In this document: piece by piece, positions 53,916-60,663 of the stretch
Numbering within the stretch: the first letter of the stretch is position 1
Layout of the letters: every line of letters starts with the position of its first letter
Assembly: GCA_009833045.1 (NCBI GenBank)
Contig: WUUP01000004.1
Coordinates: 310,001-374,000, forward strand
Source: Saprospirales bacterium GYS_P2D
GTDB lineage: Bacteria > Bacteroidota > Bacteroidia > Chitinophagales > Saprospiraceae
Direction of reading: 5' to 3'
Length of the DNA: 64,000 nucleotides
Position numbers and translations under genes: made by a program
The notes under the pieces: generated by a model
What the model was told of the DNA's origin: nothing
What the model saw: only the letters and a program-made list of their open reading frames with translations
Databases searched by the model: none

Positions 53916-54941
53916 TTATGCTACAGTAGCATTTTCTTTAATATTTCGGCCTTGCATGAAGTCCGATTCGTCTTTACCTGACAGTTGGATACCTCCTCTG
54001 TCTTCTCTGAGGGTACGAGAGAAAAGTGATAAGTCTCCATCAGTCAAAAACTGCCAAGTCAGTTTTGCCCATGAGGTATGATAGTGTAGTGTATCATAGT
54101 ACTCAGGCGCTATAGCTTTTATTTTGGGTAGATTATTCCATGGTACATAGGAGAAGTCATGATGCTCATTGTGGTATCCCACATTGAATGCTAATGCATT
54201 CAGTGGTCCATAGTAGCTGTAGGTCTCCTGTGGTGGCTTGACCAGATAGTGCTCTTGGATCCATCTGCCACCCAGCGGATGTAAGCCTACTGAGAAAAAG
54301 AATGATAATACTAAATAGAGTATCGGCATCCACCCCCAGAAGTAGACGATAGCTACATCAAAAGCTACTACAGTCAGTAGATTGATCCATATCCATTTAT
54401 TGCTAAACTGAATTTCTTTGAGTCTCGGTGGTCTCAATGCCTGAAAGAGAGGGAATAACAAAAGCCAAATAGACTTACCTATAAAGCTATTACCGATCAT
54501 CTTGGCCTCCCAGACACTTGGGATATCCGCATCGATGTCATAGTGCCCCTGAAAAGCATGATGCTTTAAGTGATATTTTCTGAATCCTACAGAGCTCGGA
54601 AAAGCATTCGGTAGATCACAGAGGATACCTGCCCAAAGATTGGCGACTCTATTCTTGAATACCATATTGTGCGTACACTCGTGGATGAGTACGAACAGGG
54701 CATGATTAGCAAATGCTCCGACTCCCCATGCGATAGCGGCGACCCAGTACCAGGCTAAGTCTTTCACTAAGAAAGAGATCAAAATCTGCATCCCTACGAT
54801 GCCCAGTATGTAGTAGATCGTGTTAAAATTTCGACCCATCAGACTCTTGATCTGCGGGTATTTTTTCAGGATTTCCTTTGTACGGTTGATGTGCGGTTCG
54901 GCAGAGTGACTATGGTTAAAATCAGTAGTAAAAGGTCCCAT
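53916..54941 (-). CDS. Sphingolipid delta-4 desaturase (DES/DEGS)-like membrane fatty acid desaturase
   Basis: 341 residues with four to six membrane segments. The N-terminus (EPHINRTKEILKKYPQIKSLMGRN) matches the lipid-desaturase N-terminal domain of dihydroceramide desaturases. Three His boxes: HECTH (87-91), HLKHH (124-128) and HNEHHD (257-262), with the surrounding FNVGYHNEHHDFSYVPWNNLPKIKAIAPEYYDTL strongly DEGS-like. It would introduce the trans double bond into dihydroceramide; bacterial sphingolipid lipids are usually saturated, so this is unusual. Single-gene transcript. Confidence 0.88.
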   Translation of the reverse strand: MGPFTTDFNHSHSAEPHINRTKEILKKYPQIKSLMGRNFNTIYYILGIVGMQILISFLVKDLAWYWVAAIAWGVGAFANHALFVLIHECTHNMVFKNRVANLWAGILCDLPNAFPSSVGFRKYHLKHHAFQGHYDIDADIPSVWEAKMIGNSFIGKSIWLLLFPLFQALRPPRLKEIQFSNKWIWINLLTVVAFDVAIVYFWGWMPILYLVLSFFFSVGLHPLGGRWIQEHYLVKPPQETYSYYGPLNALAFNVGYHNEHHDFSYVPWNNLPKIKAIAPEYYDTLHYHTSWAKLTWQFLTDGDLSLFSRTLREDRGGIQLSGKDESDFMQGRNIKENATVA

Positions 54942-55070: not shown

Positions 55071-55101
55071 GACACAACCATTATAAATCCCTGCCCTGTA
55101 T
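55071..55101 (+). promoter_or_regulatory. Predicted ECF-sigma-dependent promoter of the sigma gene
   Basis: GACACAAC (55071-55078), 18-bp spacer, TGTAT (55097-55101), 18 bp before the ATG. The same two elements with the same spacer occur before the gene at 56974, pointing to autoregulation by the encoded sigma factor. Confidence 0.6.
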
Positions 55102-55119
55102 GTTTAGTTAGTCATATAA

Positions 55120-55662
55120 ATGAGAGCAGACATAGGAAATATCATCAAGCGGTGCCAAAAACAAGATCGAGCAGCACAGCGTCAATTATTTGAAAGGTTT
55201 TATTCGGAGGGCCTTTCCACTGCTTTGCGATATACCAGAAATGAAGCGGATGCAAAGGAAATCTTGAGCGATGCATTCATCAGAACTTTTAAAAATATTA
55301 CTTCGTTTGATCTGGCTTATCCTTTTAGCCCATGGTTTCGACGGATTATCATCCATGCTGTGAGTGACTATTATCGGTATAGCAAGGAGCCTTTTTTAGA
55401 AATAGAGTATGCGAAGACGGCATCAGTACAAAACGAGTCGATTCAAACTATAAGTCATGACGAAATCATGAAGCTGATCCAAAGATTGCCACATGCTTAT
55501 CGTATTTGTTTTAACCTTTTTGTGATTGATGGATATAAGCATAAAGAGATCGCAGAAATGCTAAATATTAAAGAGGGAACTTCTAAATCCAATGTAGCTA
55601 TGGCTAAGAAAAAGCTTCAGGCCATGTTTCAAGAGGAGAATAAAATCAAATTGGCGAAATGA
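55120..55662 (+). CDS. ECF-type RNA polymerase sigma factor
   Basis: 180 residues. Region 2 (DRAAQRQLFERFYSEGLSTALRYTRNEADAKEILSDAFIRTFKNI) and region 4 (IQRLPHAYRICFNLFVIDGYKHKEIAEMLNIKEGTSKSNVAMAKKKL). It overlaps the next gene by 4 bp (ATGA), so the downstream membrane protein is probably its regulator. Predicted to read GACACAAC-N18-TGTAT promoters. Confidence 0.9.
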   Translation: MRADIGNIIKRCQKQDRAAQRQLFERFYSEGLSTALRYTRNEADAKEILSDAFIRTFKNITSFDLAYPFSPWFRRIIIHAVSDYYRYSKEPFLEIEYAKTASVQNESIQTISHDEIMKLIQRLPHAYRICFNLFVIDGYKHKEIAEMLNIKEGTSKSNVAMAKKKLQAMFQEENKIKLAK

Positions 55663-56906
55663 GTGATTTATTTGACCATATAAAAGATGAACTCGATAAG
55701 CATAAGAATCATCAGTTAGATGAGTCTGTATGGCAGCGCATTGAGATCGAACTGGATCAATCTAAAGCTCATAAGAGCTACTTTAGCTGGATACCATTTT
55801 TAGGAGGTCTCTTGTTAGGGCTGACTATCTTGGGAGCAGTGTGGTATGGTGTATCTTTTTCTTCTCAGCGGGGTATGGGTTCAGTAGTTGAAGCAGATTC
55901 AGCTACTACATCAGCGCCCATTAGCTATCAGAATTTTACCCAAAGTGATACGATATTTCGATATGATACTATCTATATAGATAGATATGATGATAAATGG
56001 CTCACTTCAGAAATTTTAACCAATACATCTTCTATCATCGATCAGTCCATAGGATCTGAGTCGATGTCTTCAGAATATCAGAACGATGTTTTGGCTGGGG
56101 CGTATGCTTCTGGTTTGATGCAAGGTGCGATTTGGTCATCTTTTGGAAATAGGGCAAATCTCTCAGATCTACAGGAACTCAGTAAGATTCATAAGAGCCC
56201 AGATAATTTGCAAATGTTGAGTGGCCCAACCATAGATCCATTGCTAATAGATGAGACCATGATTATGGATCGACATCTATCAGGAGTAATATCTTACTCA
56301 AAGCCTTCTTGGGGAAGACCACTCTTTTCTATTGCAGCTGTGGGTACACCAGTAGATCTTGGAACTAAGAAAGAAAAATATCTCCATAAGCTATGGACCT
56401 ATGGAGCGAGAGCTACCTTGTATCCACATGAGAGATGGCAGATAGCCATTGGTCTCGAGGGGCGGTTATACAAAGGTGGTTATGATCATAGTTTGCCTGA
56501 AGCCTTGTTTATCCCTTCTGCTATTGAAAAGAGATCAGATATAGTTGATTTTTATTACAAGACAGAATTCGTAGATATACCAGTTTTTTTACAATATAAC
56601 CTTCGACCAAATCGTAATCTACAGCCATATGTATCAGGAGGGATACGCATGTCCAAGATCACGGGATATGGGGCCGACTATCTATTGAATGATGGGAGTG
56701 AATTAGAGAGAAAGGTCAATATTAATTCATCAAATTTCTTTTTGAATTCTGTTATGTTGTCATCTGGTCTATCCATCCATACTCGATCAGGATTTGGAGC
56801 ATTTGGAGAGGCATATTACCGACGCCAGGTCAATCTATCTATGTTGGAATTTGAAAAGAATAATGGTATAGGTCTTACAGTAGGCCTTTTCTACTCATTT
56901 AGGTGA
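55659..56906 (+). CDS. Membrane protein with anti-sigma-like N-terminus and beta-barrel-like C-terminus
   Basis: 415 residues. About 42 cytoplasmic residues (DLFDHIKDELDKHKNHQLDESVWQRIEIELDQ), one membrane helix (WIPFLGGLLLGLTILGAVWYGVSF), an acidic/Ser-Thr-rich stretch, and a C-terminal region of amphipathic strands ending in YSFR (WQIAIGLEGRLYKGG, FVDIPVFLQYNLRP, LQPYVSGGIRMSKITGYG, GFGAFGEAYYRR), like small outer-membrane beta-barrels. Coupling to the sigma gene suggests that it holds the sigma factor at the inner membrane. Confidence 0.65.
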   Translation: MSDLFDHIKDELDKHKNHQLDESVWQRIEIELDQSKAHKSYFSWIPFLGGLLLGLTILGAVWYGVSFSSQRGMGSVVEADSATTSAPISYQNFTQSDTIFRYDTIYIDRYDDKWLTSEILTNTSSIIDQSIGSESMSSEYQNDVLAGAYASGLMQGAIWSSFGNRANLSDLQELSKIHKSPDNLQMLSGPTIDPLLIDETMIMDRHLSGVISYSKPSWGRPLFSIAAVGTPVDLGTKKEKYLHKLWTYGARATLYPHERWQIAIGLEGRLYKGGYDHSLPEALFIPSAIEKRSDIVDFYYKTEFVDIPVFLQYNLRPNRNLQPYVSGGIRMSKITGYGADYLLNDGSELERKVNINSSNFFLNSVMLSSGLSIHTRSGFGAFGEAYYRRQVNLSMLEFEKNNGIGLTVGLFYSFR

Positions 56907-56921
56907 TTTTTCTTGCTCTCT

Positions 56922-56952
56922 GACACAACTATTTTGAAAGCACACTCTGTAT
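56922..56952 (+). promoter_or_regulatory. Predicted ECF-sigma-dependent promoter of the downstream operon
   Basis: GACACAAC (56922-56929), 18-bp spacer, TGTAT (56948-56952), 21 bp before the ATG at 56974. Same elements and spacer length as at 55071. Confidence 0.6.
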
Positions 56953-56973
56953 TATTTATTAAATATCTCATTA

Positions 56974-57633
56974 ATGAAAAGCCAATTGAAAACAAATCTT
57001 TTCCTACTTGTACTACTTATTACTTGCACTGTGGTGACCGGTCAAGAGATGTCTATCTATTCAGACGAAATCAATCTGAACGATGAGATTTTAATTCAAC
57101 CCAATGGTGGTCAATTTTCGTTTCCGATCATTCAATTTAGAAGCGGTACTAACTTTAGAGAGATTGGCTTGAGAGGTGGTGACAAGATTGGAATAGATGG
57201 AGATGTGATTCCTTATTCGAGTTCTACTTTTGACCTGGGCAATAACGTGGCCAATGAGCACTGGGATCGAGTAGTATGTAATATCACTTTAGAATTATCG
57301 CCTTTGGCTCCAGTAATTGCAAAATCTGCAAGGTTGGATCAGGCCTTGGCACATATTAATATGTTGAAAACCTATAGCTATAAAAGTAATGACGGTGGTA
57401 TGTCACTGTCATTCGATTACGATGTACTGAAGAAGCATTTTCCGGAGGCTGTCGGGATATCCGATGATACTGCAGATCAGAAGAATAGACTGCCAACAAT
57501 CCGTGATAGTGCATTTACACCTTTGATTGTCAAAGCATTGCAAGAGCAGAGTCAGTTAATAGAAGCGCAACAGATCAAAATCGAAGAACTGTCTCGTGAG
57601 CTGGAGCAAATGAAAGTGAAAATTGAAAACTAA
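56974..57633 (+). CDS. Secreted protein with endosialidase-chaperone-like (tail-fibre) C-terminal domain
   Basis: 219 residues. Signal peptide (MKSQLKTNLFLLVLLITCTVVTGQ), a short beta-rich region with DLGNNVANEHWDRVVC, then DQALAHINMLKTYSYKSNDGG...FDYDVLKKHFPEAV, the pattern of intramolecular chaperone (peptidase S74-like) domains, and a C-terminal coiled coil (EQSQLIEAQQIKIEELSRELEQMKVKIEN). Such proteins are common surface proteins in Bacteroidota. Co-transcribed with the following lipoprotein (30 bp apart). Confidence 0.7.
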   Translation: MKSQLKTNLFLLVLLITCTVVTGQEMSIYSDEINLNDEILIQPNGGQFSFPIIQFRSGTNFREIGLRGGDKIGIDGDVIPYSSSTFDLGNNVANEHWDRVVCNITLELSPLAPVIAKSARLDQALAHINMLKTYSYKSNDGGMSLSFDYDVLKKHFPEAVGISDDTADQKNRLPTIRDSAFTPLIVKALQEQSQLIEAQQIKIEELSRELEQMKVKIEN

Positions 57634-57663
57634 TCTTTTAAAAAACAGACAAATACAATAGTC

Positions 57664-59652
57664 ATGAAGACTTCATCTTATATTATTTTCTTAGTTTTTG
57701 CATTATTTTATTCATGTTCAGATGATCTATCTTTTGAAGAAGAAACGATCGATGCAGAGCTTATCGCAGCGGAAAATCAAATCACGACGACGGAGAATTT
57801 TGTTAATTCATCAGATCCGATTGATTATTCAGCCATATTCTTTTCAACAGTTTCTGATCCACAGCAGTTGCCCGAAGCGGTCATACGATCTGTTCAGACA
57901 TTGTATCCAGATGTACGAATTCAGAGCTTTCAGAAATTTGATAGCAAGGTAGGTACTGATTATGTCCATTATTCTGTCTTTTTGCATCAGGGAATTGAAG
58001 CCGTTTTCTATCAGAATGGATTTCCTCTTACTTCGGCTACCATAGAAGATCAATTTGATACCGATGAATTACTCGCAGGACAAATGTCCTGGTGGCAGTT
58101 ACTACGTGTAGAAGAGAGCTATAGAGGAGACCTCATAGAAGAGGTCAAAATGCAAGAAGAGGGTAAAGTACGAGTAGACTTTAAGGATCGACAAAGCGTA
58201 GTCATCAATAAAATGGGTATGGCGATATCTACCTCCACAGATGATACATTTGATGATCTATCTTTTATACTTATCGACCCTGTGGATCTCCCACAAGCTA
58301 TAAAAGATTATATATCCACTAATTATCCCAGCGATACTATCATAGAAGCCGAAGAAAATTTGGATGGATACGAAGTGATCATTTCTTCAGGTATTAAATT
58401 AGAATTTGATATCTCAGGCAACTTCATAGAAATATCTGGAAATGGGGATGATGATGGCGAGAATCAAGGGGAAGATATCAACCCAGCAGACTTGCCGCAA
58501 GCAATATTAGATTATATCGCTACTAACTATCCAGATCTGACGATCGTAGAGGCGGAGATATACCCTAATCAATACGAAGTAACACTGAGCAGCGGCGTGG
58601 AATTAGAGTTTGATCTATCAGGCAATTTCTTAGAAGTATCTGGACAGGGTGGAGATGATAATGGAGATGACAACGAAATTGAGACAGGTAGCCTTCCTGC
58701 TGCAGTGACAGACTATATAGCAGCTAATTATCCAGGAGAGACGATCGTCAAAGCGGAGTTTGACGGAATAGAGTATGAAGTGACCTTGAGTAATGGATTG
58801 AAGTTGGAGTTTGACGATATGGGCAATTTCAAAGAGATATCTGGTAATGATGGAGATGATAGTGGGGAAGAAGATGAGATAGAAATCAGTAATCTACCGA
58901 TGCCAGTGACAGACTACATATCAGCTAATTATCCAGGAGAGACGATCGTCAAAGCGGAGTTTGACGGAGTAGAATATGAAGTGACCTTAAGTAATGGTCT
59001 AAAATTAGAATTCGATAGTATGGGTAGCTTCAAAGAAATATCTGGATCAGAAGGAGAAGGAGAAAATGAAGATGATCATATATCTGTAGGCGACTTACCG
59101 ATGTCAGTGACAGACTATGTAGCGGCTAATTACCCTGGAGAGACCATAATCAAGGCAGAATTTGATGGTGTGGAGTATGAGGTGACATTAAGTGGTGGAT
59201 TGAAACTTGAGTTTGACGCTGATGGTAACTTCAGAGAGATATCAGGTAACTCTGGAGATGGAGAAGGCGAAGGAGAGGATATAAATATAGAGGATCTCCC
59301 TCAGGTGATAATTGACTATATCAGTACAAACTATCCTGCAGCAGTCATCATAGATGCTGAGTCAGATGAAGATGGATTTGAAATCGAATTGAGCAATGGA
59401 GTAGAATTAGAATTTGATAACATGGGTAATCTGATTGAGGTGGATGGAGATGGTAGTGGATCAGATGATGATTGTTCGGATATTACTTTTGGCGAATTGC
59501 CTGCAGCAGCTCAAAATTACATCAATACTAACTATGATGGAATTGGTATTGACCGTGTTCGATCATGCACTGACGAGTATCGAGTAGAGCTCGATAATGA
59601 TGTGAAAATAACTTTTGATCTTGATGGTAATGTGACAGACATCGATGACTAA
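57664..59652 (+). CDS. Lipoprotein with seven to eight PepSY-like (DUF2874) repeats
   Basis: 662 residues. Lipoprotein signal ending FYSC, then a diverged repeat (LPEAVIRSVQTLYPDVRIQSFQK...) and seven clear repeats of about 55 residues from about residue 215 to the end, each LPxxxxDYIxxNYPxxxIxxAExxxxxYEVxLSxGxxLEFDxxGNFxEISG. Linkers are rich in Asp, Glu and Gly (GDDDGENQGED), possibly calcium-binding. Repeats 3-5 are nearly identical, so they expanded recently. PepSY-like domains often bind or inhibit peptidases; what this protein binds is unknown. Confidence 0.82.
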   Translation: MKTSSYIIFLVFALFYSCSDDLSFEEETIDAELIAAENQITTTENFVNSSDPIDYSAIFFSTVSDPQQLPEAVIRSVQTLYPDVRIQSFQKFDSKVGTDYVHYSVFLHQGIEAVFYQNGFPLTSATIEDQFDTDELLAGQMSWWQLLRVEESYRGDLIEEVKMQEEGKVRVDFKDRQSVVINKMGMAISTSTDDTFDDLSFILIDPVDLPQAIKDYISTNYPSDTIIEAEENLDGYEVIISSGIKLEFDISGNFIEISGNGDDDGENQGEDINPADLPQAILDYIATNYPDLTIVEAEIYPNQYEVTLSSGVELEFDLSGNFLEVSGQGGDDNGDDNEIETGSLPAAVTDYIAANYPGETIVKAEFDGIEYEVTLSNGLKLEFDDMGNFKEISGNDGDDSGEEDEIEISNLPMPVTDYISANYPGETIVKAEFDGVEYEVTLSNGLKLEFDSMGSFKEISGSEGEGENEDDHISVGDLPMSVTDYVAANYPGETIIKAEFDGVEYEVTLSGGLKLEFDADGNFREISGNSGDGEGEGEDINIEDLPQVIIDYISTNYPAAVIIDAESDEDGFEIELSNGVELEFDNMGNLIEVDGDGSGSDDDCSDITFGELPAAAQNYINTNYDGIGIDRVRSCTDEYRVELDNDVKITFDLDGNVTDIDD

Positions 59653-59677
59653 TATTAGTCAATAAGATACAGATAAT

Positions 59678-59731
59678 GGGAGTGTGCTTAAGTTTCTTAC
59701 CATGAAATTTTGAGTTTCACTCCCTTTTTTA
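59678..59731 (+). terminator. Rho-independent terminator after the PepSY-repeat gene
   Basis: GGGAGTG (59678-59684) pairs with CACTCCC (59718-59724), with partial pairing inside, followed by TTTTTTATTTT. Confidence 0.7.
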
Positions 59732-59766
59732 TTTTAAGCACATCACCGATTCTAAATTGAAGTAGT

Positions 59767-60663
59767 TTACTGTAAAATATAGTGATCCCAAGCTATACGA
59801 GCTGTCTGAGCGATGATATGGTAGCAGTCATCGAGCTTCTCTCGACTATCACTGACTAATACGCTGATGTACAGAGGACTACCATCTGGCAAGAATATGA
59901 TCCCCACATCATTCACAGCTCCTCGTTTACCATCCGGATCGACGCCAGCTTGCCCAGTTTTATGGGCGATCGTCGTGCCTTCTGGTAGTAGGCCTCTTAG
60001 ACTCTTAGTACCTGTCTGGGTACCGATGAGCGTCTCCATGAGATAGTCATAGCTTGTCTCACTGAGCATTTTGTTTTCGTTAGTATAGATCTTTTGAAGT
60101 AGGAGAGTGATGGCATCGGCAGTTGACCAGTTGAGGTACTGGATCTCCCAGTCGGACTGCATGATGATCTCTGGATACCTGATAGCTACATCGGTGATCC
60201 CTATATCACGCATATACTTCTCGACGATCGCTGGACCGCCTACCATCTCAAATAATATATCGCAGCCCATATTATCACTCCAGGCCACTGTCTGCTCCAT
60301 CATCTCAGCGATAGTGATCGTGGCGCCGTTTGGATATTTCTTCTTCAGCGGACTCCAAAGATGTTCGTATTGCTCGATATGTGCGGGAGTGATCTGGATA
60401 GAGTCTGAGAGACTGCATATACCGGCATCCACATCCTTTAGGACGGTGAGGGCGAGATGGAGTTTGTATACGCTCTGCATGGGGAGATGCCTATCTCCGT
60501 TGACACTGATCTGATCTCCTGACTTTGGCTCGTAGATGGATACGCCTACCGTGGCATCGTAGGATTTGATCATCTCTTCGATGGCGCTTTGTACAGGATG
60601 ATTTTGGCTATAGCCAAATGAAAGAAAAAGGCTGAAATATATAACTCTCAGTACTCTGATCAT
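59767..60663 (-). CDS. Class A beta-lactamase (subclass A2-like)
   Basis: 298 residues with signal peptide (MIRVLRVIYFSLFLSFGYSQ). S64-V-Y-K67 corresponds to the catalytic SxxK, SDN at 129-131, the omega-loop stretch SDWEIQYLNWSTADA, and HKTGQAG with KTG. The sequence plan, including the omega loop, is nearer to the Bacteroidota CepA/CfxA/PER group than to TEM/SHV. Periplasmic hydrolysis of beta-lactams is expected; spectrum cannot be inferred. No mobile element adjoins it, so it is probably intrinsic. Confidence 0.9.
   Translation of the reverse strand: MIRVLRVIYFSLFLSFGYSQNHPVQSAIEEMIKSYDATVGVSIYEPKSGDQISVNGDRHLPMQSVYKLHLALTVLKDVDAGICSLSDSIQITPAHIEQYEHLWSPLKKKYPNGATITIAEMMEQTVAWSDNMGCDILFEMVGGPAIVEKYMRDIGITDVAIRYPEIIMQSDWEIQYLNWSTADAITLLLQKIYTNENKMLSETSYDYLMETLIGTQTGTKSLRGLLPEGTTIAHKTGQAGVDPDGKRGAVNDVGIIFLPDGSPLYISVLVSDSREKLDDCYHIIAQTARIAWDHYILQ

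Follow-up and report, generated by a model that had tools for sequence, protein, structure and literature searches.

The window analysed here is a 64,000-nucleotide stretch of the genome of Saprospirales bacterium GYS_P2D (28 contigs, 4,951,352 bases, 4.95 Mb). The subject of this report is a compact locus within it that comprises a gene for an extracytoplasmic function (ECF) sigma factor, an overlapping gene for an anti-sigma factor resembling the Dma (dual membrane-spanning anti-sigma) proteins, and an operon encoding a secreted S74-like protein and a PepSY-repeat lipoprotein (Table 1). A two-block element, GACACAAC-N18-TGTAT, precedes the sigma gene and again the operon, and both copies are predicted to be promoters.

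Table 1. Genes and predicted regulatory features of the sigma/anti-sigma locus, in window coordinates.
Feature	Position	Strand	Basis
Promoter 1, a predicted autoregulatory site of ECF type: GACACAAC-N18-TGTAT	55071-55101	+	Exact match, genome-wide search
ECF sigma factor, Das-like, 180 amino acids	55120-55662	+	Pfam and TIGR02937
Dma-like anti-sigma factor, 415 amino acids	55659-56906	+	AlphaFold2 layout, Foldseek barrels
Promoter 2, a predicted site of the same class: GACACAAC-N18-TGTAT	56922-56952	+	Exact match; matrix score
Secreted S74-like protein, 219 amino acids	56974-57633	+	Weak profile matches
PepSY-repeat lipoprotein, 662 amino acids	57664-59652	+	PF11396
Intrinsic terminator closing the operon	59678-59731	+	7-bp outer stem, then T-run

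The sigma protein matches PF04542 (E 2.5e-11, residues 23-87), PF08281 (E 3.6e-16, residues 114-166) and TIGR02937 (E 2.7e-22); it has sigma-70 regions 2 and 4 and no Pfam match to region 3, the composition of an ECF sigma factor. Its gene is joined to the Dma-like gene by an ATGA overlap at 55659-55662. Record titles of the 80 kept loci of sigma relatives are mostly Bacteroidota; L054 and L058 are labelled Chlorobiota, L084 Euryarchaeota, and L045 and L046 belong to Fodinibius. At the far end of the locus, the terminator region (59668-59732) folds at -20.7 kcal/mol (z -5.2), which 0/200 shuffles equal; it is absent from a simple terminator scan, which permits loops of 3-8 only. A fatty-acid desaturase gene (53916-54941; PF00487, E 5.1e-28) with an N-terminal match to Lipid_DES, the sphingolipid delta-4 desaturase family (PF08557, E 1.3e-13), diverges from the sigma gene.

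The first copy of the element starts 49 bp ahead of the sigma ATG, and the second 52 bp ahead of the secreted-protein ATG and 15 bases behind the stop codon of the Dma-like gene. Both were confirmed on the plus strand, their blocks set exactly 18 bases apart, as the original prediction had it, and its remark that the motif occurs nowhere else nearby agrees with the absence of any further match with fewer than two mismatches in the window. The prediction had also called the circuit self-contained and named a genome-wide motif search as a check; GACACAAC-N(17-19)-TGTAT has only two matches in all 4,951,352 bases and the reversed pattern has none, a uniqueness that supports the description at genome scale. 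Among 199 genomes of the family, two exact copies are present in this one alone (1/199) and any exact match in 16/199. When two mismatches are allowed, the genome shows no excess (96 matches vs 106 for the reversed control), and none of the six near-matches that were opened is a credible promoter, five lying inside open reading frames (ORFs) and one facing no ORF of at least 80 amino acids; a wider regulon for the motif was rejected on these grounds. Three of the two-mismatch matches are minus-strand copies of a near-identical 31-base stretch (G000:C5:49662, C11:1087178 and C11:1088937), probably a repeat element.

Block sharing between the two upstream stretches is, by itself, suggestive: with the sequence left free, a 13/13 match (8 plus 5 bases, gap 14-19) arises in 5/2,000 paired shuffles. 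The sharing is made firm by the conservation of CAAC-N17/18-NGT before related sigma genes. The general CAAC form was spotted by eye and then tested on 96 sigma upstream regions, namely those of 79 of the 80 kept loci (the upstream stretch of L094 being too short), 16 others and the window. CAAC-N17/18-NGT lies 25-115 bases before the start in 60 of the 96, compared with 2.8% in letter shuffles, and the CAAC usually stands about 37-62 bp ahead of the start codon. The spacer is 17 bases in 56 of these sites and 18 in four, the window belonging to the latter group. The most frequent letters spell GCAACC(A/T)TTT, with NGTC following after 17 bases; letters outside the selection rule also agree, with C after CAAC in 83% and G before it in 75%. 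The GACACAAC-N18-TGTAT sites are thus the local form of a wider promoter class, and the two blocks originally described, while present as stated, are better placed as CAAC(C/T)-N17/18-NGT. In the form first given, the motif is matched at 10 or more of 13 letters in 16/79 upstream regions vs 6.8 expected from shuffles, a mild excess. On a matrix built from the other loci, with the window excluded and also L151 (counted among the 60, its site resembling part of an inverted repeat), site 2 scores 14.1 bits and site 1 10.3 bits. Matrix matches anywhere in the loci are hardly in excess (257 vs 228 for the reversed control over about 1.06 Mb), so that the informative comparison is the one confined to stretches behind the anti-sigma gene, given below.

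The same element could instead be the operator of another DNA-binding regulator, with the genes transcribed by the housekeeping sigma factor. In the first place it is a repeated piece of DNA, seen in sequence alone, and its spacing differs between loci (17 or 18), both of which would suit an operator. However, the distance of CAAC from the start codon is promoter-like, and the element precedes the very gene that encodes the sigma factor. AAC at -35 and GT at -10 are typical of ECF promoters, and generic sigma-70-like promoter matches in the region are not above background (13 vs 17.3 in shuffles). In the part of PMC9723704 that we consulted, a CGT -10 box on mapped Flavobacterium psychrophilum transcription starts is assigned to ECF sigma factors. 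We regard an operator as very unlikely.

The layout recurs. The order sigma gene, Dma-like gene, PepSY lipoprotein gene was found in seven genomes including that of the window, the others being L243, L256, L259, L265, L266 and L153 (L047 duplicates the L153 record and the two were counted once; L153 and L265 share one genus; the L266 sigma was identified by frame search, not BLAST, and without a Pfam check). The window alone among the seven is described with an S74-like gene between the Dma-like and PepSY genes. Within 40 PepSY regions, picked non-randomly from the PF11396 matches listed for 81 genomes, a repeat profile found the PepSY gene in 35, and five of these lie directly behind a sigma gene and a Dma-like gene. 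GCAAC(C/T) is present in 12/12 stretches of the six other loci, that is, before the sigma gene and in the gap between the Dma-like and lipoprotein genes, compared with about 1-12% of shuffles per stretch. L256 has CGCAAC, 18 bases and CGTAT at both sites; at the -10 place, TTACCT is found at both L259 sites and GCCTGA at both L266 sites, and the letters agree less between the sites of L153, L265 and L243.

The promoters of one locus resemble each other more than they resemble those of other loci. With hand-picked sites, one spacer length per locus and the base composition that sites of one genome share, the sigma and target promoters of 10 loci have 90/120 letters in common vs a cross-locus mean of 64.7, and 4/200,000 shuffles reach 90. 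We rely on this figure rather than on the 12-locus test (112 vs 76.3; 0/200,000) that includes the window and the locus L160 described below, since it was their likeness that brought those two pairs to notice. Scored alone, the three letters ahead of CAAC, which are independent of the spacer, give 24 vs 15.8 (38/200,000), and the three after it show no clear difference (21 vs 18.4; 23,146/200,000). Removal of the close relatives L265 and L086 as well leaves 74 vs 52.1 in eight loci (29/200,000); the seven PepSY loci alone, window included, give a weaker result (63 vs 47.7; 932/200,000). L076 was left out of the 10- and 12-locus tests as a close relative of L086, and in an eight-locus run that includes it 6 of 40,320 permutations reached the observed value.

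Sites of this class behind the anti-sigma gene were also scored in 55 loci, where a site of at least 13 bits is present in 6/55 vs 0/55 reversed controls (6 vs 1 at 12 bits, 6 vs 2 at 10 bits and 8 vs 3 at 8 bits). Behind the sites of at least 13 bits, L076, L077 and L086 encode proteins that combine PKD domains with a type IX sorting domain, L047 a PepSY lipoprotein, and L079 and L117 one small unassigned protein each. The L079 gene behind the anti-sigma gene looked PepSY-like by eye and was rejected as a PepSY target, having no PF11396 match; a neighbouring L079 gene has one.

These second sites bear on the possibility that the sigma and anti-sigma factors are a true pair but that the operon is driven by read-through or by an independent regulator, site 2 being accidental. 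The 15-base distance from the Dma-like stop codon to site 2, the frequency of a free two-block match in shuffles and the existence of the operon without such a site in L215 and L217 (see below) would be in keeping with it. Yet site 2 outscores site 1 on a matrix from other loci, and paired sites recur in six other sigma-Dma-PepSY loci and are alike within loci, which makes an accidental site 2 most improbable. An ECF-type promoter common to the sigma gene and the surface-protein operon is supported by domain and comparative evidence.

The Dma-like protein is predicted by AlphaFold2 (17-sequence alignment) to consist of four parts. Residues 1-37 (55659-55769) contain N-terminal helices 2-14 and 22-37 and are presumed to be the cytosolic sigma-binding part; residues 40-72 (55776-55874) form one long helix that is presumed to contain the inner-membrane segment; about 150 low-confidence residues (73-222, 55875-56324; pLDDT, the per-residue confidence, is below 50 across 65-218) are presumably a disordered periplasmic tether; and residues 223-414 (56325-56900) form a C-terminal beta-barrel of nine predicted strands, for which the best solved-structure matches in Foldseek are OmpA, OprF and NspA at E 1.3e-6 to 2.1e-6. 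The part of PMC13088901 on which we drew describes the same layout for Dma proteins: N-terminal part, membrane helix, disordered tether and C-terminal barrel. The window gene also lies beside its ECF sigma gene, and its host belongs to the Bacteroidota. As modelled, the anti-sigma factor fits the recently described Dma family, an assignment made from predicted layout and gene position. The original prediction of an ECF sigma factor followed by an overlapping membrane-anchored anti-sigma factor with a barrel-like C-terminus is thus upheld by domain, fold and comparative evidence.

It may be asked whether the C-terminal domain is a soluble beta domain rather than an outer-membrane barrel, which would make the protein an ordinary single-membrane anti-sigma factor. 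Pfam barrel matches of the window protein fall under the cut-off (PF13568, E 0.0034), the model is of modest confidence, and 8/26 aligned relatives match PKD and CHU_C in place of a barrel. On the other side stand the OmpA, OprF and NspA matches, the OMP_b-brl_2 match at E 0.01 or better in 12/26 aligned relatives and the match of the L047 relative to PF13505 above cut-off, so that we consider a soluble domain very unlikely. The five new Dma-like proteins match barrel families weakly, with three of five at E <0.02 and all under cut-off; L256 and L266 have none, and for these a barrel is assumed from length and gene order.

The relatives with PKD and CHU_C (type IX sorting-like) domains are anti-sigma factors encoded behind ECF sigma genes in their own right. 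One (L083, 3553-6069) was confirmed on its own, and those of L085, L094, L113, L116, L078, L054 and L058 were named by eye from the alignment. The gene after the L083 anti-sigma gene encodes PorP/SprF (E 4.9e-56), similar-looking next genes are seen in several other loci, and such an anti-sigma factor could monitor type IX secretion.

The first product of the target operon had been likened to a tail fibre. The likeness is real but weak: the 219-amino-acid secreted protein matches a PHROG tail fibre family at E 0.0017, and a profile of seven sequences matches 6f45 (long tail fibre distal subunit, E 0.001) and 7dc3 (myelin regulatory factor, E 2.3e-4). No Pfam S74 match was found for it. SDxRLK, which we take to be the self-cleavage motif of S74 or intramolecular chaperone domains, is present in L219, L220 and L221 (SDARVK in L218) and missing from the window, L215 and L217 copies. 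We call the protein S74-like and not S74, because it lacks both the Pfam match and the motif and its profile hits are weak.

The second product is a PepSY-repeat lipoprotein, in accordance with the original prediction. It matches PF11396 (PepSY_like) at E 1.4e-75 with 250.1 bits, against a curated cut-off of 28.3, in seven stretches, and has seven PepSY_like domains and one diverged repeat with acidic linkers. No other PF11396 protein was found in the genome that encodes it. Cys-Ser-Asp-Asp stands at the lipobox, and Ser-Asp-Asp after the lipid-bearing Cys resembles the surface-export signals of Bacteroidota lipoproteins.

The S74-like and PepSY gene pair is also present in L215 (G149) and L217 (G173), where it sits behind a TPR-CHAT protein; the operon is therefore not tied to this sigma factor. 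The TPR-CHAT protein, protease-like and with a C-terminal hydrophobic segment, is encoded at 13458-19954 in L215 and 327-6245 in L217, and the next ORF upstream in L215 is subtilase-like (PF00082, E 4.7e-18). In four further loci (L258, L261, L263 and L264), a secreted protein of about 370 amino acids, similar in appearance from locus to locus, comes before the PepSY lipoprotein; the L258 copy gives dockerin-like matches and weak ones to type IX sorting domains. A class A beta-lactamase gene (window 59767-60663; PF13354, E 1e-36) converges on the PepSY gene. The PepSY_like family bears a beta-lactamase-inhibitor-like name, and L215 has a PF00144 gene at the position of the window's beta-lactamase. 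We take this link as coincidence, as no BLAST match to the beta-lactamase or PF00144 gene was flagged among the displayed neighbours of other PepSY loci.

The same genome contains a second sigma/anti-sigma locus with a promoter pair of its own. Of 24 sigma relatives found in it, the five closest were examined, and in three of them the anti-sigma gene is about as long as a Dma gene (L158, 487-490 amino acids; L159, 475; L160, 506), in none of which Pfam found a barrel. In L160 (G000:C23:221500-233500), GGCAACCTC-N11-CTGCATA stands before the sigma gene and before the gene after the anti-sigma gene, whose product, 1,800 amino acids long, is presumably secreted. This element occurs twice in the genome and its reversed control never, and 0/2,000 paired shuffles match as well as the L160 pair. 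In L159, a type IX sorting domain is carried by the product of the gene that follows the anti-sigma gene.

We consider it highly probable that the window locus is an autoregulated, insulated envelope-to-promoter sigma/anti-sigma switch of the Das/Dma kind; the support comes from gene order, predicted protein layout, the uniqueness of the promoter pair, and the recurrence of layout and paired sites in relatives. In the resting state, the cytosolic N-terminus of the Dma-like protein would hold the ECF sigma factor, and the chain would cross the inner membrane, span the periplasm as a flexible tether and end as an OmpA-like outer-membrane barrel. A change at the outer membrane would free the sigma factor, which would read the two copies of its private promoter, its own and that of the S74-like/PepSY operon ended by the terminator. 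Release would thereby increase expression of the sigma factor, the Dma-like protein and the surface operon at the same time, and the rising anti-sigma factor may damp the response. We infer that the system senses envelope events, controls transcription and displays its products at the surface. A role of the PepSY lipoprotein in the envelope, with feedback on the Dma-like protein, is likely, since its gene is a recurrent partner.

Several observations weigh against this interpretation. CAAC-N17/18-NGT is missing from 36/96 sigma upstream regions, the rule was framed after most of the same sequences had been viewed, and close relatives were not down-weighted. Among the 36 is L144, whose sigma factor is the closest relative found (51% identity); its GGCAAC-N18-TGTAT was not counted because it overlaps the predicted start codon (the next in-frame ATG, GTG or TTG start is only 111 bases after CAAC), and the gap after its anti-sigma gene contains no such site. 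A local second promoter is not general, since a strong second site is present in only six of the 55 loci and the 13-bit line was chosen after the scores were known; the L215 and L217 gene pairs have no CAAC-N16-18-NGT site upstream. The sub-threshold Pfam barrel matches and the model's confidence (mean pLDDT 61, predicted template modelling score 0.46) count here too, and the Dma-like protein is poorly conserved, with a match in 13/198 other family genomes, most above E 1e-6.

The nearest known counterparts are the Das/Dma systems of Bacteroides thetaiotaomicron, for which we follow the consulted portion of PMC13088901. There, das2 (log2 fold change 4.54) goes up when Dma2 is lost, and so do genes within and next to its operon, as a self-contained circuit would lead one to expect; this is a precedent for the window system. 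ECF21 genes sit beside Dma genes, an arrangement that the window's sigma/Dma-like pair fits in position. Das2/Dma2 (BT_1559/BT_1558) likewise comprises an ECF sigma factor beside a four-part anti-sigma factor, but its neighbours are DUF4943, DUF4858 and an enoyl-ACP-reductase-like protein, whereas those of the window are the S74-like protein and the PepSY-repeat lipoprotein; control of polysaccharide loci and vesiculation belongs to the Das2/Dma2 side of the comparison. Dma1 restrains Das1, and the output NigD1, of a Bacteroidota-specific class, is needed for the phenotype; its family differs from that of the PepSY lipoprotein. The words motif and PepSY do not occur in that portion of PMC13088901, and no description of the sigma-Dma-PepSY unit, of its paired promoters or of the promoter rule was found in the sources searched, among them PMC13088901, PMC12596196, PMC8999054, PMC9723704, PMC12045153 and the search listing of PMC10434189, which were consulted in part and do not include the founding PNAS 2024 paper on Das1/Dma1.

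More distant likenesses exist. FecI/FecR cell-surface signalling carries an outer-membrane signal to an ECF sigma factor through a separate TonB-dependent receptor; the window system would share signalling from outer membrane to ECF sigma factor, but no TonB-dependent receptor is encoded among the genes adjoining its sigma gene. In SigX/OprF mechanosensing of Pseudomonas aeruginosa, the outer-membrane porin OprF is linked to an ECF sigma factor (PMC8999054, as far as consulted). SigX and OprF are separate proteins, whereas the Dma-like protein is a single chain predicted to carry both ends.

The window locus is thus probably a further Das/Dma-type system; what it adds is a PepSY lipoprotein as recurrent output, together with a rule for the promoters. 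Dma anti-sigma factors have been described only recently, in a gut bacterium, and the present locus points to PepSY-repeat lipoproteins as outputs of an outer-membrane-sensing switch. A more speculative proposal, which we put forward tentatively and regard as rather doubtful, is that Bacteroidota carry several parallel Das/Dma-type channels per cell, each with one dedicated surface product and with an insulating promoter pair that evolves together with its sigma factor, and that the PepSY lipoprotein, as the standing partner of one branch, would bind or shield its barrel and so close a surface feedback loop. The promoter rule (CAACC followed after 17 or 18 bases by NGT or a local variant), together with the likeness of sites within a locus, may predict sigma targets in genomes without genetics, and the fact that a single genome holds two loci whose private promoter pairs differ suggests naturally insulated parallel signalling lines.

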